From: Sphingosinicella flava | GTDB taxonomy: Bacteria; Pseudomonadota; Alphaproteobacteria; Sphingomonadales; Sphingomonadaceae | Direction: 5' to 3' | Assembly: GCF_016025255.1 (NCBI RefSeq) | Contig: NZ_CP065592.1 | Location: 787,122-851,121 of the forward strand | DNA length: 64,000 nt | Position numbers and translations under genes: made by a program | Shown: positions 1,908 through 39,609 of the stretch, in pieces | Layout: each line of letters begins with the position of its first letter | Position numbering within the stretch: position 1 is the first letter of the stretch | The notes under the pieces: model-generated | Told to the model about the DNA's origin: nothing | The model's input: the letters and a program-made list of their open reading frames with translations, nothing else | The model's database searches: none

Positions 1908-4853
1908 TCAATCCTCGCGCCCATACCATTCGTCGAGGCGCATCAGCTGATCGTAATCGCCGTAAGGCGCATATTCGGGATGGAGCTTGGCGGTGAACGG
2001 TGCATCGCCCGTCAGCCATTGGGCGGCCGCATCGGCGAAATTGGCGGCGGCAAGAGCGGTGAAATCCGCCGGATCGATGGCGGTCTTCCCGCCGACGGGG
2101 CTGGCGATGAAGCCGAGCCTCCCCCCTTTCTTGGCGAGCGACCAATATTCGAAACCCTCCGGCTTCCCCTCGATCCCTTCGAAGCCGCCGCGTTCGGCGA
2201 TCAAGCCGATAAGGCCGAGCTGCAACGCATAGCCCGCCGCGACCGCTTTCGAGGCGGGCGGCATGCCGGTTTTATAGTCGACGATGGTCAGACCGCCATC
2301 GGCCGCCCGGTCGATGCGGTCGGCGACCCCGAACAAATCGATGCCCGCGACCTGCGCCCTCCCCTTGCATTCCGCCGCCAGCACCTTTCGCCCCTCTGCG
2401 TTGAGCCGCGCCACCTCCTCCGCGATCCAGTCCACCGCCTCGAGAAGCCGGGGCTGCCAAAGCGCCTTCATCAGCGGGTGGGCGGCGCTGCCTGCGAGCA
2501 AAGCCTCTGCGCGCGGGCGCAATTTCGCGGGGTCGCAGCCGTCTTCCTTGGCCCAGGCTTCCAGAATGGCGTGGACAGCGCTGCCCCGCCAGGCCGGGCC
2601 AGGATCGGCATCGACCTCCTCCAGCATCGACAGGCCCAGCATCTTGCGCGCGTAAAAGGCGAAAGGGTCGGCCTTCAGGCGATCCACATCGGTCACGGAT
2701 ATGGAGCTGGGACGCTCGACGGCCGGAGGCTGCGGTGCGGGCCGCGAAGCGGGCGTGTAGCGATCCGGCCGGTCGAGCGCCTCGGCCCAGCGCCGGTGGG
2801 CCGGCAGACGGGTCATGCCGCCGGTCATCGCCTCCAGCCGCAGCCAGAAACGCGATGCGACGGCGGGCGCCCGCGCATCGCGCCGCGCCCGCGTCACGAC
2901 GACCTGGCGCCCGCCCAGCCCGCTCGCGAAATCGTGAGCGGCAAGGCCGATCCGCCGATCGAGGCCCGGCAGGCCGAGGTCGGCGCGAATGCGCGGCGCG
3001 AGCCAGGGATCGGGCGCGGGCAGAGAAGGCCAGGTACCCTCGTTGAGGCCGGACAGGATCATCAGGTCCGCCTGCTGCAGCCGCGCCTCGATCAGGCCCC
3101 AGATGAAGATGCGCGGATGCTGCCCGTAAGGCGGACGGACGGCGACGCCGGAGAGGATCTGGGTCAGCAATGCGGGGAAGGTACGCATATCGCTGCCTCT
3201 CGGCCCGCCGAGCGCCGCGACCTCGATCTCCTCGAACAGATCGGCGGCGGCGCGCCCGGCGGGTCCGGCCCAGGCTTCCGCGCCCGCCAGCGCTTCGGCC
3301 GTTTCGCGCAGAAGCTGGAAGCGCTGGGCGAGGCTCGCCCCCGTATCGAAACCTTGCTCCAAAGGTGCGAGCAAGGGCGCGATCCCATGCCACCAATCGA
3401 GGGCCTTGCGCGCGACCGGAGCTTCCCGCCCAGCGACGGCGGCGAGATGCGCCGCGATGCCGGAAAGCCCAGCAGCCGGGCGCGGGCCGCGCAAGGCGAG
3501 ATCGAGATAGCGGACGCCCTCCAGCCACGCCTGGCGCGCCTCGCCCCGGCGGACCAGCGGATGCTTGAGGAGCGCGAGCAAGGGCACGGGCGCGAACCGC
3601 TCCGCCGCCGCTTCCGCGATCGCGAGAAGGAGCGTTCCGGGGGGCGTCTGGCCAAGCGGGCGGCCGGCGCTGTCATCCGCCACGATGTTCCAGCGTTCGA
3701 GTAGGGCGGATACGCGGCGGGCGAGCATCCGGTCGGGCGTCACCAGCGCCGCCGTCCGGCCGGGCGTCTCCACCGCTTCGCGCAGGAGGATGGCGATGGC
3801 CTGGGCTTCCTGCGCGGGGTCGGCGACTTCCAGGGCCTTGACGCCGGACAGGCTGCGATCGCGCGCGCGCAGGCTTTGCCATTTGCCGGTGTAGCGGGCC
3901 GGCGCCATGGCGTTGGCGATGGCGCGGCTGCGGCTGGCAGGCGCGTCCCTGCCCCCGCCCCAGCGCCAGTCCACGACCTCGCCGCGCCCGACGCTCATGC
4001 GGTCGAGCAGCAGTTTCAGCGCATATTGGGGATGGGTTTCGATGGATCGCGCCCGCCTGCCGGTTTCGGGATCGGCTTCGTGCGGGCCAAGCGCTTGCCA
4101 CTCCGCTTCCGGCATCGCGCGGTCGAGGCCGGGAAAGACGATCGTGCCGTTCGGCAATCGGGCGATGACACCGAGCAAGCGGGCAACGGCGGGCGCGGTG
4201 GTGGTGATGCCAGCCCCGACGACGAAACCCGGCGGCGGCTCCCTGCGCCACCGTTTCGCCATGGCGTCGAGCAGGCGGTTGCGCCGGTCGGCGAGATCAA
4301 TGCGGCCTAGACGGCGCAGCGTGCGCGGCCAATCCTCGAGGATCAGGCGCAGGCGATCGAGCGAGGCCTGCCAATGGGCCGAAAGATCGGGCGCTTCTTC
4401 AACGATGCCAAACAGGCGCGCCGGATCGATTTCCTCCACCAGAAGCTGATCGAGCGCCCGGCCAAGATCGGCGGCAAGGCGCAGCGCCTCGGCGGCGTCC
4501 ACCCCCGGCATATGGCTTTCGACGAGCCGGGCGAGGATCATCAGCCGCGTCATCGGCTCGACGGCGGGCGGTATGGGATCGCTCTCCAGCGGCTCCAGCG
4601 CCCCGCCGATCCGCTCGTCGAGATCGGGATCGCCCACCGGAACCAGGCGCGGCAGCAGCAATCCGCCCTCCGACCGGCGCACGAAGGCGTCGGATATGGC
4701 GCGCGCGGCACGATTGTTGGGGACGAGGACGATGCCGCCCGCAAGGCCGGTCTTGTCCTTCCCGTGCCGCGCGATCAGCCCGGCGGCCAGGGCGTCGGCA
4801 AAAGCCCGGTGCGGCGGGATCGTGTAGACGCTTGGGCCGCGTCCTTCATTCAT
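1908..4853 (-). CDS. addB: double-strand break repair protein AddB
   Basis: AddB is the second subunit of the AddAB helicase-nuclease, which processes double-strand breaks for RecA loading. The 981-residue product has the N-terminal inactivated-helicase region with VLVPNNRAARAISDAF, and a C-terminal PD-(D/E)XK nuclease domain with SISVTDVDRLKADPFAFYAR leading to the nuclease motif DYKTG near residue 870. The start at 4853 (MNEGRGPSVYTIPPH) overlaps the end of the upstream nucleotidyltransferase by 8 bases, which indicates translational coupling and makes the longer reading frame to 4949 unlikely. In many alphaproteobacteria addA follows immediately; here a convergent unrelated gene follows, so the partner must be elsewhere or absent. 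Confidence 0.9.
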   Translation of the reverse strand: MNEGRGPSVYTIPPHRAFADALAAGLIARHGKDKTGLAGGIVLVPNNRAARAISDAFVRRSEGGLLLPRLVPVGDPDLDERIGGALEPLESDPIPPAVEPMTRLMILARLVESHMPGVDAAEALRLAADLGRALDQLLVEEIDPARLFGIVEEAPDLSAHWQASLDRLRLILEDWPRTLRRLGRIDLADRRNRLLDAMAKRWRREPPPGFVVGAGITTTAPAVARLLGVIARLPNGTIVFPGLDRAMPEAEWQALGPHEADPETGRRARSIETHPQYALKLLLDRMSVGRGEVVDWRWGGGRDAPASRSRAIANAMAPARYTGKWQSLRARDRSLSGVKALEVADPAQEAQAIAILLREAVETPGRTAALVTPDRMLARRVSALLERWNIVADDSAGRPLGQTPPGTLLLAIAEAAAERFAPVPLLALLKHPLVRRGEARQAWLEGVRYLDLALRGPRPAAGLSGIAAHLAAVAGREAPVARKALDWWHGIAPLLAPLEQGFDTGASLAQRFQLLRETAEALAGAEAWAGPAGRAAADLFEEIEVAALGGPRGSDMRTFPALLTQILSGVAVRPPYGQHPRIFIWGLIEARLQQADLMILSGLNEGTWPSLPAPDPWLAPRIRADLGLPGLDRRIGLAAHDFASGLGGRQVVVTRARRDARAPAVASRFWLRLEAMTGGMTRLPAHRRWAEALDRPDRYTPASRPAPQPPAVERPSSISVTDVDRLKADPFAFYARKMLGLSMLEEVDADPGPAWRGSAVHAILEAWAKEDGCDPAKLRPRAEALLAGSAAHPLMKALWQPRLLEAVDWIAEEVARLNAEGRKVLAAECKGRAQVAGIDLFGVADRIDRAADGGLTIVDYKTGMPPASKAVAAGYALQLGLIGLIAERGGFEGIEGKPEGFEYWSLAKKGGRLGFIASPVGGKTAIDPADFTALAAANFADAAAQWLTGDAPFTAKLHPEYAPYGDYDQLMRLDEWYGRED

Positions 4854-5607
4854 TGCCGAGCAGCATTTCCGTCTTCTTGACCGCGGCCGGCGTGCCGACA
4901 TCGTACCACAATCCCTGATGCACGGCGCCGAAGCAGCGGCCCTGCGCAATGGCGCGATCCCACAGCAAATTCGTCGAGAACGGGCCTTCGGGCGTGTCGG
5001 CGATCAGCCGCTTCGCGATCATCTGAATGCCGGTATAGACGAAGGGCGCCACCGTCCCGCGCCTGGGGCGCCGCACCCGCCCCATCGCATCCAAGTGGAA
5101 ATCACCCTTTCCGCCATGGCAATTGGCGCGGGCGAACGGAACGAGCAGCAACAGCGCGTCCATGTCCGCATCGTTCCAGTGCGTCGCGAGCAGGCGAAGC
5201 GTATCGACGGGACCATCCACCCAGAGATTGTCGGAATTGACGACGAGAAACGGATCGGCATCGATCATGGGCAAGGCGCGGACCAGGCCGCCGCCGGTTT
5301 CGAGCAACAGGTCGCGCTCATCTGAAATCGCGATATCAATATCTTGCACTCGATTCTTCAGATGAGCTTCGAGCGCATTGGCGAGGTAATGGACATTGAC
5401 GACGGCCCGTTCCACGCCCGCGGCGCGCAGCCGGTCGAAGCAATGATCGATGAGCGGCTTGCCCGCCACCTCGACCAGCGGCTTGGGCCGCGTGGCGGTG
5501 AGCGGCCGCATTCTTTTGCCAAGGCCCGCCGCCATCACCATTGCCGTGCGGGGCACGGTGCCGCCGGGATCGGGCCGCAGGGACAATGGCGCCTTGTAAC
5601 GGCTCAT
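4846..5607 (-). CDS. murU: MurU-like sugar-1-phosphate nucleotidyltransferase
   Basis: Predicted to transfer UMP to MurNAc-1-phosphate, giving UDP-MurNAc in the recycling shunt that bypasses de novo MurA/MurB synthesis. The nucleotide-binding signature is near residue 25: MVMAAGLGKRMRPLT, then TRPKPLVEVAGKPLIDH. A metal-binding Asp lies in VVNSDNLW. The 253-residue length fits. The start at 5607 was chosen because it forms an ATGA overlap with the stop of the sugar kinase upstream; a second ATG at 5625 is possible. Family members also include mannose-1-phosphate guanylyltransferases, so the substrate assignment rests on the coupling to an AmgK-like kinase. Confidence 0.8.
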   Translation of the reverse strand: MSRYKAPLSLRPDPGGTVPRTAMVMAAGLGKRMRPLTATRPKPLVEVAGKPLIDHCFDRLRAAGVERAVVNVHYLANALEAHLKNRVQDIDIAISDERDLLLETGGGLVRALPMIDADPFLVVNSDNLWVDGPVDTLRLLATHWNDADMDALLLLVPFARANCHGGKGDFHLDAMGRVRRPRRGTVAPFVYTGIQMIAKRLIADTPEGPFSTNLLWDRAIAQGRCFGAVHQGLWYDVGTPAAVKKTEMLLGNE

Positions 5608-35909: not shown

Positions 35910-36944
35910 CTATTCCTTCTCGCCGAGCTTGTGCCGTTTCATGGCGTGACGGAGCTGATCGTAGGTAAGCTGCAATGCGGTCGCTGCAGCGCGCTGGTTC
36001 CACCGGCATTTATCCAGAGCAGCAGCCAAAATTGCCTTCTCATATTCGGCGATGGCAAGGCGAAAGTCGGCACAATTCGATGGATCGTAACGGGATGGGG
36101 CGGCGACAATCGCCTGCACCTCGGCCGGGCTTGCCTCCGCCCCCTGGACGCGGGCCATCGACGGCGGCCGCCAGGGGGATTCGAAGGGATCGAACTGGAT
36201 CAAGTCGACGGGGTTATCCGCGTCCTCCCAACGATAAACGGCGCGCTCCACCACGTTGCGCAGCTCGCGCACATTGCCCGGCCAATCATAACCGAGCAGC
36301 CGGTCCATGGCATTCGCGCTGAAGCCCGGCCATTGCGGCCAATCCAGCTCCAACGCCATGCGCCGGGCGAAATGGTCGGCAAGGACGGGGATGTCGCTGG
36401 TCCGGTGGCGCAGGGGCGGCAACGTCACCACTTCGAAAGACAGGCGATCGAGGAGGTCGGCCCGGAATCGCCCTTCATCCACCAATTTGGGCAGATGCTC
36501 GTTGGTCGCCGCAACGATGCGGACATCCACCCGGGTCGGGCGGCTGGCGCCGATCCGCGTCACCTCGCCATATTCGACGGCGCGGAGAAGGCGGTCCTGC
36601 GCCGCCGACGACAAGGTCGCGAGTTCGTCGAGGAACAGGGTGCCGCCGTCCGCTTCCTCGAAACGCCCCGCGCGCGCCTTCGACGCGCCGGTGAACGCAC
36701 CCGCTTCATGTCCGAACAATTCCGCCTCGATCAACGTTTCGGGCAAGGCGGCGCAATTCATGACGACGAGCGGCCCATCCCACCGCGAGGAGAGATGGTG
36801 CAACCGCTCGGCCACCAATTCCTTGCCGGTCCCCCGCTCCCCGATCACCAGCACGGGACGATCGAGCGGCGCGGCCCGGCTCGCGCGCTCGATTGCGTCG
36901 AGGAAGGATGAGGACTGACCAACGAGCTGAGTGGTGCGCTCCAT
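35910..36944 (-). CDS. pspF: phage shock protein operon activator PspF (sigma-54 enhancer-binding)
   Basis: Hexameric AAA+ activator that opens sigma-54 promoters of psp genes and is inhibited by PspA. The 344-residue protein lacks a receiver domain, as PspF does. Walker A is VIGERGTGKELVAERL, the sigma-54 contact loop is GAFTGA in HEAGAFTGASKA, Walker B is GGTLFLDELATL, and the sensor II region is YDWPGNVRELRNVVERA. The C-terminus is a Fis-type helix-turn-helix (NQRAAATALQLTYDQLRHAM). The start at 36944 drops 12 non-conserved residues. It is divergent from the psp operon, which has a sigma-54 promoter in the shared gap. Confidence 0.95.
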   Translation of the reverse strand: MERTTQLVGQSSSFLDAIERASRAAPLDRPVLVIGERGTGKELVAERLHHLSSRWDGPLVVMNCAALPETLIEAELFGHEAGAFTGASKARAGRFEEADGGTLFLDELATLSSAAQDRLLRAVEYGEVTRIGASRPTRVDVRIVAATNEHLPKLVDEGRFRADLLDRLSFEVVTLPPLRHRTSDIPVLADHFARRMALELDWPQWPGFSANAMDRLLGYDWPGNVRELRNVVERAVYRWEDADNPVDLIQFDPFESPWRPPSMARVQGAEASPAEVQAIVAAPSRYDPSNCADFRLAIAEYEKAILAAALDKCRWNQRAAATALQLTYDQLRHAMKRHKLGEKE

Positions 36945-36954
36945 TCCCGAATGT

Positions 36955-36969
36955 TGGGACGAATTCCCA
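36955..36969. promoter_or_regulatory. candidate PspF binding site (imperfect evidence)
   Basis: The inverted repeat TGGGA-CGAAT-TCCCA lies just upstream of the pspF start and about 76-90 bases before the sigma-54 promoter of the psp operon. That distance suits an upstream activating site and would also allow autoregulation of pspF. Assignment is by position and symmetry only. Confidence 0.35.
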
Positions 36970-37044
36970 CCTCTTGGCAAGTCTTTTCGCCGATGCGCCC
37001 CGCTTTCTCAGAGAAAAATGGCGGATTTCCGTGCGTCTTAAAAT

Positions 37045-37060
37045 TGGCACGGCTCTTGTA
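37045..37060 (+). promoter_or_regulatory. sigma-54 promoter of the psp operon
   Basis: TGGCACG-GCTC-TTGTA matches the -24/-12 consensus TGGCACG-N4-TTGCA with one change (GT instead of GC at -13/-12) and exact spacing. It points to the psp operon, and the divergent gene encodes the matching activator. The predicted start is near 37071. A 9-bp inverted repeat (CGGCTCTTG at 37050-37058, CAAGAGCCG at 37071-37079) overlaps the -12 box and the start point. Confidence 0.85.
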
Positions 37061-37113
37061 ACATAATTGGCAAGAGCCGCCGTCAGGCAGCCCAGGGTTC
37101 AAGGAGAAAGACC

Positions 37114-37260
37114 ATGTTCAATATCGACCTCAACAGCATTCAGCGCGTTGCCGTTTCCGCCGTCGCTGCCCTCGTGTTCAGCACCACCTGCATCGGCATG
37201 GCCGTCGCTCCGGCGGCCGCGGAACAAGGCGCGCCGGTCGTTGCCGTACTGAGTGCCTAA
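37114..37260 (+). CDS. 48-residue exported or membrane peptide, first gene of the psp operon
   Basis: A short gene not recognised as a known family. ATG at 37114 follows AAGGAGAAAG with good spacing, and the frame ends at TAA 37260. The product starts MFNIDLNSIQRVAVSAVAAL, followed by VFSTTCIGMAVAPAAAEQG and a short tail APVVAVLSA. The middle 22 residues are hydrophobic and end in APAAAEQ, which looks like a signal peptidase site; the alternative is a single-span membrane peptide with one cysteine. It lies 43 bases after the predicted sigma-54 start and 72 bases before pspA, so it should be the first product made upon envelope stress. Confidence 0.65.
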   Translation: MFNIDLNSIQRVAVSAVAALVFSTTCIGMAVAPAAAEQGAPVVAVLSA

Positions 37261-37332
37261 AGCCGGACCAATCTGCTATAAGGGTTGCAGAGAGCTTCCG
37301 GCTTTTAAAAGATCTCAAGGAGTTTCAGTTTG

Positions 37333-38010
37333 ATGGGTATCTTTTCGCGGACACGGGACATCATCGCCGCCAACGTGACCGACCTGCTCGACAAGGCGGA
37401 GGATCCGGGCAAGATGATCCGCATGATCATCCTGGAGATGGAGGAAACGCTCGTCGAGGTCCGCGCCTCGGCCGCGCGCTCCATCGCCGATCAGAAGGAG
37501 ATGCGCCGCCAGATCGCCAAGCTGGAGAAAATCCAGGAAGGCTGGGTCGAAAAGGCCGAGCTGGCGCTTTCGAAGGACCGCGAGGATCTCGCCAAGGCGG
37601 CTTTGGTGGAAAAGCAGAAGGCGGCTGAAATGGCCGACGGCTTGAAGTCCGAAATCGCGGTGCTGGACGATGCGCTCCGCGCGTCGGAAGCCGATATCGC
37701 CAAGCTGCAGAACAAATTGCGCGAGGCGCGGACCCGCCAGAACGCGATCGCCAGCCGGATGGAAAGCGCCCACAATCGCGCCCGCCTCCGCGAAATGTAT
37801 GCCGGTCCCAAGACGAGCGAAGCGTTCAGCCGCTTCGACGTGCTGGAGCGCCGCGTCGATTTCGCCGAGGGCCATGCCGACGCGCTCGCGCTGGGCGCTC
37901 CGCCCAAGACGCTGGAAGAAGAAATCGCCGAACTCCGCAACGCCGAGAAGATCGAGGCGGAGCTCGAGGCCCTGAAGGCCAAAAACCGCAACTCCGGTCA
38001 GGAAGGCTAA
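37333..38010 (+). CDS. pspA: phage shock protein A (PspA/IM30 family)
   Basis: Peripheral inner-membrane protein that forms large helical assemblies on stressed membranes and also represses PspF. The 225-residue protein is nearly all helix: the amphipathic N-terminus GIFSRTRDIIAANVTDLLDK, then coiled-coil repeats such as IADQKEMRRQIAKLEKIQ and AKLQNKLREARTRQNAIA. The length and the motif EDPGKMIRMIILEMEETLVE are diagnostic. ATG 37333 is chosen over an adjacent TTG at 37330; AAGGAG lies 10 bases upstream. It is followed after 3 bases by pspB. Confidence 0.96.
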   Translation: MGIFSRTRDIIAANVTDLLDKAEDPGKMIRMIILEMEETLVEVRASAARSIADQKEMRRQIAKLEKIQEGWVEKAELALSKDREDLAKAALVEKQKAAEMADGLKSEIAVLDDALRASEADIAKLQNKLREARTRQNAIASRMESAHNRARLREMYAGPKTSEAFSRFDVLERRVDFAEGHADALALGAPPKTLEEEIAELRNAEKIEAELEALKAKNRNSGQEG

Positions 38011-38013
38011 GTC

Positions 38014-38316
38014 ATGGATCCGACAGGCGTCATCGCAATCGTATCGATCTTCCTCGGCCTGCCGTGGATCATTTTTCACTACATTACCAAATGGAAAAGT
38101 GCCGCGACGCTGACCACCGAGGACGAAAACCTCCTCGACGGCCTGCATGAAATGGCGCGCCGCCTTGAAGACCGCCTTTCGACCATCGAACGGATCATGT
38201 CGGCGGAAAATCCGGGCTGGCGCACGGTGACTCACGATCCGGTCGCCAGTCTCCCCGTCCGCGATCTCGGCGAGATCGACCGCGACCTCGAAGAATTGAG
38301 GAGCCTCCGCAAATGA
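38014..38316 (+). CDS. pspB: phage shock protein B-like envelope stress membrane protein
   Basis: A 100-residue protein with one N-terminal transmembrane helix (GVIAIVSIFLGLPWIIFHYI) and a cytoplasmic helical tail. In enterobacteria PspB and PspC sense membrane damage and pull PspA off PspF. The segment LEDRLSTIERIM corresponds to the PspB leucine-zipper region; the tail ends EIDRDLEELRSLRK. It is longer than E. coli PspB (about 74 residues). It starts 3 bases after the pspA stop and its own stop overlaps pspC by four bases. Its helix motif recurs in the next four proteins. Confidence 0.9.
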   Translation: MDPTGVIAIVSIFLGLPWIIFHYITKWKSAATLTTEDENLLDGLHEMARRLEDRLSTIERIMSAENPGWRTVTHDPVASLPVRDLGEIDRDLEELRSLRK

Positions 38317-38693
38317 GCGCGCGTCACACCAAATTCTATCGCGACAAGCAGAATGCCAAATGGCTGGGCGTCTGCGCGGGCATCGCCGATTATACCGGCA
38401 TCGACGTCACCCTGATCCGCATCGGCCTCGTCGCCGCGACCATGCTGGGTTCGGGCGCACCGTTCATCGTCTATCTCATCGCCGGCTACATCGCCCCGTC
38501 GAAGCCGCGCGAATTGGATTACACCACGCCGGACGACAAAAAATTCTGGCAGGGCGTCCGCGCCTCGCCGACCCGGACGGTGAAGACGGTACGCTCCAAA
38601 TTCCGCGACATCGACCGCCGCCTCGCCAATATCGAAACTTATGTCACGAGTTCCGACAACCGGCTCGCCGACGAAATCGAAAAATTGCGCTGA
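38313..38693 (+). CDS. pspC: phage shock protein C-like envelope stress protein
   Basis: A 126-residue inner-membrane protein. The PspC domain is visible as KFYRDKQNAKWLGVCAGIAD, then VTLIRIGLVAATMLGSGAPF and a hydrophobic segment IVYLIAGYIAP. After a linker the C-terminus is a helix RRLANIETYVTSSDNRLADE followed by IEKLR, similar to the tails of the neighbouring small proteins. The start overlaps pspB (ATGA). A 38-base gap separates it from the next gene. Role: membrane sensor acting on the PspA-PspF pair, by family. Confidence 0.92.
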   Translation: MSARHTKFYRDKQNAKWLGVCAGIADYTGIDVTLIRIGLVAATMLGSGAPFIVYLIAGYIAPSKPRELDYTTPDDKKFWQGVRASPTRTVKTVRSKFRDIDRRLANIETYVTSSDNRLADEIEKLR

Positions 38694-38731
38694 CAGCTTA
38701 GCGGCAACCGCATCAATCAAAGGAAGCGGAA

Positions 38732-39052
38732 ATGGAAAAATTTGCTTTCATGTCTCAATTCTTTCCACTTGCGGTGATCATGGCCGCGATCGGGGTGGGC
38801 GGCTGGGTCTTCACCACCTGGCTTCGCATCAAAAACGGCTATCCGCTCGAAAATAGCTGGGGAAAGCCGATCTACCCCAAGCAGAATGACGAGACGATCG
38901 AACGGGTGAAGTTGCTCACCCAGGAAAATGCCCAGCTCCGCGCCGAACTTGGTTCGATCAAGGATCGGCTCGCCACCGTCGAACGCATCGTCACCGACGA
39001 CAGCCACCGCCTGACGCAGGAAATCGAAGCCCTGCGCCTGCCGAAGAATTGA
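38732..39052 (+). CDS. psp-operon small membrane protein 1
   Basis: Not a named family that I recognise. 106 residues: one transmembrane helix near the N-terminus (FFPLAVIMAAIGVGGWVFTTW), a short loop with NGYPLENSWGKPIYPKQND, then a coiled-coil-like helix ENAQLRAELGSIKDRLATVE and the end ERIVTDDSHRLTQEIEALR. The ribosome-binding site AAAGGAAG lies 9 bases upstream. The architecture copies PspB (short N-terminal anchor plus cytoplasmic helix), and the terminal motif is shared with the next two genes, so a role in the same membrane-stress complex is inferred. Confidence 0.75.
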   Translation: MEKFAFMSQFFPLAVIMAAIGVGGWVFTTWLRIKNGYPLENSWGKPIYPKQNDETIERVKLLTQENAQLRAELGSIKDRLATVERIVTDDSHRLTQEIEALRLPKN

Positions 39053-39059
39053 GGGACTT

Positions 39060-39335
39060 ATGCTAGAAGATCTGTTGAAGGCCTTTACCGTGCTGGTGGT
39101 CATCGGCCTGCCCGTCACGCTCATCTTCGGCCAAGGCCTCATCAAGCGCTTCCTCGAACATCGCGAGAAGAAGCTGGAGATCGAGGCGCGCATGACGGCG
39201 GAGAAGGCGGCGCAATATGCCGCTCACACCGAGCGGCTGGAACAGAGGGTGCGCGTGCTGGAGCGGATCGTCACCGAAAAGGGCATTGCGGTGTCCGACG
39301 AGATCGAACGCCTGCGCCACACGCCGATCAACTAA
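39060..39335 (+). CDS. psp-operon small membrane protein 2
   Basis: A 91-residue protein with an N-terminal transmembrane segment (FTVLVVIGLPVTLIFGQGLI) followed by a strongly charged helix, FLEHREKKLEIEARMTAEKA, then ERLEQRVRVLERIVTEKGIA and EIERLRHTPIN. No known family recognised. It begins 7 bases after the stop of the previous small protein, with GAGGGA just upstream. The ending (LERIVT, EIE, LR) aligns with that of its two neighbours without gaps. Probably a PspB-like coiled-coil partner at the inner membrane. Confidence 0.75.
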   Translation: MLEDLLKAFTVLVVIGLPVTLIFGQGLIKRFLEHREKKLEIEARMTAEKAAQYAAHTERLEQRVRVLERIVTEKGIAVSDEIERLRHTPIN

Positions 39336-39363
39336 ACATCAGCATTTTAGGGAGTTACGTGGC

Positions 39364-39609
39364 ATGAATCCGTTCGAAATGGTGGTGATCATCGTCGCCA
39401 TCGTCTCCATCGCCAGCATCATCAAAGCCAAATATGGCGTCCGTCGCGACCGTCACGGCAACGAATATCATGTGAACGATGCCGAGGCCGGGCGCCTGCG
39501 CGACGAAGTGAAGATATTGCGCGACCGCGTCGCCGTCCTCGAACGCATCGCGACCGACAAGGAAAGCAGCCTGGAACGCGAGATCGAAAGGCTTAGGGAC
39601 CAGCGCTGA
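39364..39609 (+). CDS. psp-operon small membrane protein 3
   Basis: An 81-residue protein. The start at 39364 follows GGGAG and drops 49 non-conserved codons of a longer open frame. A transmembrane helix (PFEMVVIIVAIVSIASIIKA) is followed by a basic turn (KYGVRRDRHGNEYHV) and a helix ending RLRDEVKILRDRVAVLERIA then EREIERLRDQR. This is the shortest member of the local series of membrane-anchored helices. It is the last gene of the psp operon; a CCTCCCCCTTGATGGGGGAGG hairpin follows 7 bases after the stop. Confidence 0.75.
   Translation: MNPFEMVVIIVAIVSIASIIKAKYGVRRDRHGNEYHVNDAEAGRLRDEVKILRDRVAVLERIATDKESSLEREIERLRDQR

Follow-up and report, generated by a model that had tools for sequence, protein, structure and literature searches.

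What do small genes added to the end of a bacterial stress operon contribute to it? The question is raised by a 64,000-nucleotide stretch of the Sphingosinicella flava genome, hereafter the window. This genome is a single contig of 2.42 Mb, in which the window spans bases 787122-851121. The window contains a phage shock protein (psp) operon of the PspF/PspABC type, with pspF divergent from pspA-pspB-pspC, and three further small genes, E1, E2 and E3, follow pspC. Most work on how PspA is recruited to damaged membranes has dealt with PspB and PspC as its two partners. A psp operon with added small membrane proteins that end in the helix of PspC suggests that the stress system may have more than two membrane docking points. 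Our reading, to which we give a probability of about 0.6, is that E1-E3 are membrane anchors controlled by PspF and sigma-54, which a C-terminal tail of the PspC type would join to the PspA-PspB-PspC complex. The locus had been described earlier from its letters alone (the sequence-only reading). The five small open reading frames (ORFs) that it put after pspA do start where it said, and all the motifs it quoted are found in the translations. Its span needs correction at one end: position 37114 begins a leader ORF of 48 amino acids, and pspA lies further downstream (Table 1).

The sequence-only reading described one C-terminal helix motif common to all five small proteins. We found the full motif, 26 residues that read roughly L-x2-R-[LVI]-x2-[LV]-E-R-I-x-T-D-x4-L-x2-E-I-E-x-L, at the ends of four of them, PspC, E1, E2 and E3. 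R4, E9, I23 and L26 never vary in 24 aligned tails, and T13 and E22 hardly do. PspB fits the first half only (E 0.14 over 13 positions), its "EELRSLR" lying 30 residues past "ERIM". A clean tail profile searched against the six-frame translation of the whole genome returned, at E <= 1, E3, E2, E1 and PspC (1.3e-11 to 1.5e-10) and the PspC of a second locus (8.2e-4); PspB was not among these matches. With the same profile, the best chain in the PDB had an E value of 3.8.

To compare loci, we used 100 psp loci, 70 from the family of the window and 30 from other families of its order. An iterated profile (three rounds) was seeded with the tails of PspC, E1, E2 and E3 and run on the 7850 six-frame ORFs of at least 45 codons in these loci and the window. 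It gave 389 matches at E < 1e-3, including PspC tails and a few PspB, all on the strand of pspA and downstream of it, with none on the other strand; this search is circular in that the extras themselves are among the seeds. The raw list of 291 extra genes became 288 after three were removed before counting as PspB or PspC. A profile built from PspC tails only, taken from 24 loci outside the family, recovered 97 of the 288 extras at E < 0.01, compared with 0/288 shuffled and 4/288 reversed tails. A profile of 70 PspC tails from within the family recovered 192 (0 shuffled and 2 reversed), and the E values of both refer to a search of just 288 sequences. Comparisons of alignments by hhalign gave E 8.5e-8 for the E1 type against PspC (38 columns), 5.5e-8 for the E3 type (gamma, see below) against PspC, and 3e-14 between the two types. 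Hence, E1-E3 carry a C-terminal tail of the PspC type.

Short helical tails could also resemble each other by convergence, the extras being generic membrane-anchored coiled coils with no specific relation to Psp. Among 72 sampled extras (of the 288), the commonest weak Pfam matches were bZIP_1 (11), DUF4164 (8), PspB (7) and ZapB (7), and the NCBIfam model Npun_F5560 matched 14. The matches to bZIP_1, DUF4164 and ZapB imply that a stretch of the helix resembles coiled coils in general. Such an origin fits poorly with the specificity of the profile in the genome and in the PDB, the shuffled-tail control, the position after pspC and the conserved gene order, and we regard it as very improbable. 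The first three of these results bear out the earlier claim that the tails are more alike than generic coiled coils.

The sequence-only reading could name no family for the last three proteins, and indeed none of them exceeds the cut-off of any of 18950 NCBIfam and 24736 Pfam models. Below the cut-offs, E1 best matches the C-terminal part of PspC in NCBIfam (E 3.5e-4) and DUF4164, which is not a Psp family, in Pfam (0.002). E2 is closest to PspB (5.8e-4) and PspC (1.3e-3) in NCBIfam and to PspB in Pfam (0.093), and E3 has chance-level matches only in both databases. The PspC model TIGR02978 covers E1 at 66-121 and E2 at 46-121 of its 121 positions, below its cut-off. The PspC domain is absent from E1-E3, which have no match to PF04024. 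Across the 72 sampled extras, PspC (35) and PspB (TIGR02976; 17, best 1.1e-6) are the commonest NCBIfam matches at E <= 0.01. A phage or defence origin was also considered and rejected, with no PADLOC match and a single weak PHROG match (E 0.0089).

One might take the extras for plain duplicates of PspB that keep its function. E1-E3 are predicted to share the PspB architecture, a single N-terminal membrane helix and a following helix, and PspB also has [IL]-E-R-I in its helix. Besides the TIGR02976 matches above, PF06667 matches 7 of the 72 sampled extras; the best of these (E 2.1e-6) may score above the Pfam gathering threshold, and ten extras that were re-scanned against Pfam gave nothing at E <= 0.001. 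A 2024 survey uses the term "PspB duplicates" for one operon (PMC11237479). However, none of E1-E3 belongs to the PspB family (TIGR02976/PF06667) by curated cut-off: E2 scores 20.1 bits against 51.7 for TIGR02976 and 13.2 against 25.6 for PF06667, and E1 and E3 have no match to the PspB models at E <= 1. The end of their tail is PspC-like (T-D-x4-L-x2-E-I), not the E/D-x-P-x-W/F of PspB (E-x-P-x-W is lacking in E1-E3), and PspB already stands beside the extras in 70 of 71 loci of the family. Hence, we consider simple PspB duplicates unlikely.

How widespread are these genes? Of the 70 family loci, 34 had been chosen because they match E3 (P0005) and 36 by hand from a PspC search across genera. 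Extras follow pspC in all 71 family loci examined (window included), as the sequence-only reading would predict, and in 36/36 of those selected by PspC. Each of the 71 loci has 1-8 extras (mean 4.0): one in 3 loci, two in 2, three in 20, four in 23, five in 16, six in 4, seven in 2 and eight in 1. These counts are lower limits where there are gaps, ten of which exceed 100 bases, including two (319 and 341) in family loci that lack one of the subtypes. For comparison, 27 of the 30 loci from other families have no extra, a count that includes one (L121) at a contig end with no detected pspA and no tail match on either strand. The remaining three have one extra each and all belong to a single family (f8, 7 loci examined).

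At the genome level, where the family and phylum counts used one alignment (A1), tail matches occur in 191 of the 199 genomes drawn from the family and in 84 of 89 genera, that is, through most of the family. By a hand count that includes PspC tails, 168 of the 199 have at least three matches, 21 have two and two have a single one. A search of the class with the gamma alignment matched 3 of 144 genomes: that of the window and two others from its family, the remaining 141 giving no match. Of 249 genomes of the phylum, 28 have tail matches; 14 of these belong to the family, 2 to the rest of the class and 12 to another class, where some of the matches are PspC itself (L175). Four loci of that other class (L171, L177, L178 and L181) encode proteins made of a membrane helix and a tail, and the genomes concerned have 1-3 tail matches each. 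Elsewhere in the order, genomes of other families have a single gene of gamma-like layout (L031, L132-L137, L139, L142 and L143), which, as checked for all but L139, lies away from psp, on a different contig or distant on the same one. The tail family thus extends beyond sphingomonad psp operons.

E3 is matched in 48 of 60 relatives, and a search with a single protein (P0003) found 184 relatives, the best 80 of which are all titled sphingomonads or alphaproteobacteria. Of the named relatives, Allosphingosinicella vermicomposti is the closest found; its E1 is 85% identical. In one contig (G620:C3), equal-scoring tail matches are mirrored around 3579521-3580343 (minus strand) and 3622106-3622928 (plus strand), which suggests that the array may be present there twice, in inverted orientation.

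Clustering of the extras distinguished the types alpha (E1), alpha-prime, alpha-like, beta (E2), gamma (E3), gamma-2, delta and a few rare ones. The order of the array is conserved, and a gamma or gamma-2 gene ends it in 67 of 71 family loci. In a FastTree tree with up to 14 members per type, clades were supported for alpha (0.97; 14 and one alpha-like), beta (0.92; 14/14), gamma (0.94; 13/14) and gamma-2 (0.90; 13/14 and one rare), and poorly for alpha-prime (0.17) and delta (0.35). Right after the membrane helix, alpha proteins have a loop, GYPL-x3-WG-x4-P, that is invariant in 26 sequences. The profile of PspC tails from outside the family recovered 46/53 alpha, 13/39 alpha-like, 1/14 alpha-prime, 23/88 beta, 12/50 gamma, 0/12 delta, 0/23 gamma-2 and 2/9 rare extras. 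Hence, it is the E1 type that is most strongly linked to PspC.

The sequence-only reading had suggested a family made by duplication or motif sharing, and the copies are indeed diversified paralogues whose main subtypes form supported clades. Tails of the same subtype in different genomes are more similar (0.644) than tails of different subtypes in one genome (0.456), a comparison that covers the 249 of 288 tails that could be cut and is biased in this direction because alpha was split partly on tail letters. Recent tandem copies or gene conversion are disfavoured by this within-subtype likeness and by the supported clades. One could guess that an ancestral stand-alone gene moved behind pspC and then multiplied. 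This history stays a guess, since the genes away from psp are not cleanly nearest to gamma: for three of nine, beta or alpha-like types score best.

The ratios of nonsynonymous to synonymous substitution rates (dN/dS) indicate that E1, E2 and E3 are under purifying selection. Against A. vermicomposti (L050), dN/dS is 0.12 for E1, 0.08 for E3 and 0.11 for PspC; for E2, the nearest gene in this locus is another beta paralogue (0.32). Across four relatives, the values range from 0.11 to 0.38 for PspC, from 0.12 to 0.22 for E1 and from 0.08 to 0.47 for E3. E2 gives 0.30, 0.32 and 0.64 against the beta genes of three relatives, the pair with L043 being omitted because it compares E2 with a gamma gene. 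All these values are rough, since the synonymous rate is near or over saturation in many pairs. With the distribution, they rule out genes private to one strain or an annotation artefact.

The AlphaFold2 model of E1 (mean predicted local distance difference test score, pLDDT, 80.5; predicted template modelling score, pTM, 0.35) has a helix at 2-35 that includes the membrane stretch, a loop, and a single helix at 53-101. In the model of PspC (mean pLDDT 71.7, pTM 0.45), for which the PDB holds no match at E <= 1, the tail lies within one helix (86-125). Hydropathy exceeds 1.5 in 280 of the 288 extras, although start codons were chosen with a hydropathy rule that leans toward a membrane helix. 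In E1-E3 the membrane stretch is followed by lysine and arginine; under the positive-inside rule, this places the tail in the cytoplasm, alongside PspA. The tail helix is thus most likely cytoplasmic.

The layout of the operon is consistent with control by PspF (Table 1). A putative sigma-54 promoter, recognised by pattern match, precedes pspA, and the genome has an rpoN gene that scores over its model cut-off. In the 450 bases before pspA, the pattern TGGCA[CT]N5TTG[ACT] is found in 35 of 69 loci of the family and in 12 of 29 other loci, and in none on the reverse strand. Hence, around half of the loci have no site in that form. The gaps between pspC, E1, E2 and E3 are 38, 7 and 28 bases, no terminator-like site is found on the plus strand between 37000 and 39720, and over all loci the gaps of the array have a median of 20 bases (287 gaps, 95% of them at most 60). 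The genes are probably co-transcribed. The leader ORF sits between the sigma-54-like site and pspA, and similar ORFs were found by tblastn upstream of pspA in 10 of 100 loci, window included. Downstream of E3 lie a SufE/CsdE-like gene and a thioesterase-like gene, both below the cut-offs of their models. Elsewhere, the genome has a second pspA-pspC pair (L140, 3351-3716 and 3740-4417, both on the minus strand), whose PspC has a recognisable tail and which no extra adjoins.

Table 1. Features of the psp locus, in positions of the window.
Feature	Position	Strand	Evidence
pspF, divergent sigma-54 enhancer-binding activator	35910..36980	-	TIGR02974, E 2.6e-146, 487.2 bits (cut-off 443.55)
Sigma-54 (-24/-12) promoter-like site TTGGCACGGCTCTTGTAA in the pspF-pspA gap	37044..37061	+	Sequence pattern
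Leader ORF, 48 amino acids, signal-peptide-like sequence (by eye)	37114..37260	+	No Pfam or NCBIfam match
pspA	37333..38010	+	TIGR02977, 272.2 bits (cut-off 242.95)
pspB with C-terminal extension	38014..38316	+	TIGR02976, 75.6 bits (cut-off 51.7)
pspC with full C-terminal tail motif	38313..38693	+	TIGR02978, 124.3 bits (cut-off 104)
E1, alpha type: one membrane helix, GYPL-x3-WG-x4-P loop, long helix ending in the tail	38732..39052	+	
E2, beta type: one membrane helix and tail	39060..39335	+	
E3, gamma type: one membrane helix and tail; final gene of the array	39364..39609	+	

Work in Yersinia and Escherichia coli describes PspB and PspC as forming a membrane complex (PMC5596341, PMC3068692). 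In the on state, the cytoplasmic C-terminus of PspC binds PspA, which frees PspF (PMC5596341), and in E. coli the leucine zipper of PspC is required for the interaction with PspA (PMC3068692). As the same type of tail stands on other membrane helices within the same operon, the extras are most simply read as further members of the PspA-PspB-PspC complex. PspB and PspC would be joined by an array of single-pass inner-membrane proteins as partners of PspA, each with its own membrane helix and juxtamembrane stretch and ending in a PspC-type helix. Under stress, PspF would turn on the entire operon, and the tails would dock PspA, pair with the tails of PspB and PspC, or both. PspA might then be gathered at several kinds of anchor rather than one, and the differing membrane parts may set where, or to which membrane state, each anchor responds.

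We count natural losses in two genomes among the evidence for this reading. One genome (G083, L264 about 4619-5480), whose weak PspC match had kept it out of the initial selection and which was examined later, has a psp operon with no pspB: pspA leads directly to a PspC whose frame ends before the tail. Behind it come two extras, one beta and one gamma, whose tails are intact. No gene of this genome exceeds the PspB cut-off, the sole weak match being its gamma extra, and there is no PspC-type tail match beyond the extras. A second genome (G160) has PspC and three extras, and no PspB at E <= 0.01. PspB itself differs within the family, with a C-terminus that is variable and longer than in the rest of the order, as in the pspB product of the window. 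A median of 39 residues follows [IL]ER[ILV] in 70 family loci and 15 in 30 others, with the ER motif chosen slightly differently in the two groups.

These losses bear on the possibility that the extras are decoys or brakes, whose tails compete with that of PspC for PspB or PspA and so set a threshold or shut the response off. The extras follow pspC in the operon and their tails resemble its own; moreover, a title in the reference list of PMC5596341 states that the Yersinia system is silenced by interactions between the cytoplasmic domains of PspB and PspC. Yet G083 keeps its extras with PspB and the PspC tail both gone, so that a competitor would have little left to compete with. A braking role seems improbable to us. 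We also entertain, as a tentative idea that we would not yet bet on, that the tail of the PspC type is a self-contained module, which can be plugged onto various anchors and docks PspA, a bacterial ESCRT-III protein. It would be carried by 1-8 different anchors in sphingomonad psp operons and by stand-alone anchors elsewhere in the phylum. As in G083, the array could replace PspB and the PspC tail, making the complex combinatorial rather than two-input.

The sequence-only reading went further in another direction and proposed a sensor array with more than two membrane inputs. In such an array, each extra would take in stress signals independently and use its own tail to release PspF from PspA. 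This would fit with membrane parts that vary by subtype over a common tail, with the supported clades of the main subtypes and with the invariant juxtamembrane motif of alpha. However, few residues precede the membrane helix, which leaves hardly any periplasmic part. Besides, anchors or effectors would look the same as sensors; sequence alone cannot tell sensing, anchoring and braking apart. We find a sensing role of this kind rather doubtful.

Several observations weigh against the extras being PspC-tailed anchors of the Psp complex. The tail is short, with 26 residues, and general coiled-coil families (bZIP, ZapB, DUF4164) are as common among the Pfam matches as PspB. PspC tails from outside the family recover few alpha-prime, beta, gamma, delta and gamma-2 extras; in the window, their profile detects E1 (2.8e-4) and E3 (9.4e-3) and misses E2 (0.065). 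There is no tail match in 8 of the 199 family genomes, and tail proteins outside psp operons imply that the tail need not act in one. The two natural losses come from a single genome each, and G083 is the only genome of its genus that was compared. Finally, the E. coli paper discusses two topologies of PspC, one of which has a periplasmic C-terminus (PMC3068692).

PspD and PspG of enterobacteria are small accessory Psp proteins, and neither is among the family matches of E1-E3. The extras resemble PspC (TIGR02978/PF04024) in its C-terminal helix, R-L-x2-[IV]-E-x2-V-T-[SD]-x4-L-x2-E-I-x2-L, and differ from it in having neither its domain nor its membrane helices. The "PspB duplicates" of Ravi et al. 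2024 (PMC11237479), PspB-like extras in a pspFABC operon given with one example accession (AOL22920.1), are possibly the same array. The array, the tail family, its distribution and a mechanism are absent from the parts of that main text that we covered, and no word starting with "sphingo" occurs in the main text of this survey or of a second one (PMC9239133), as far as these were covered. Among open-licence papers, we found none that combines PspB, phage shock and Sphingomonadales. Hence, PspB-like extra genes had been noticed before, and we found the array, the tail family and its spread undescribed in the open-licence literature.

The tail unites into one family 288 small proteins that individually have weak matches or none to Psp models. 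An array present in most genomes of one family, and genomes in which PspB or the PspC tail has been lost naturally, offer a comparative system for asking which part of the Psp complex senses and which part docks.

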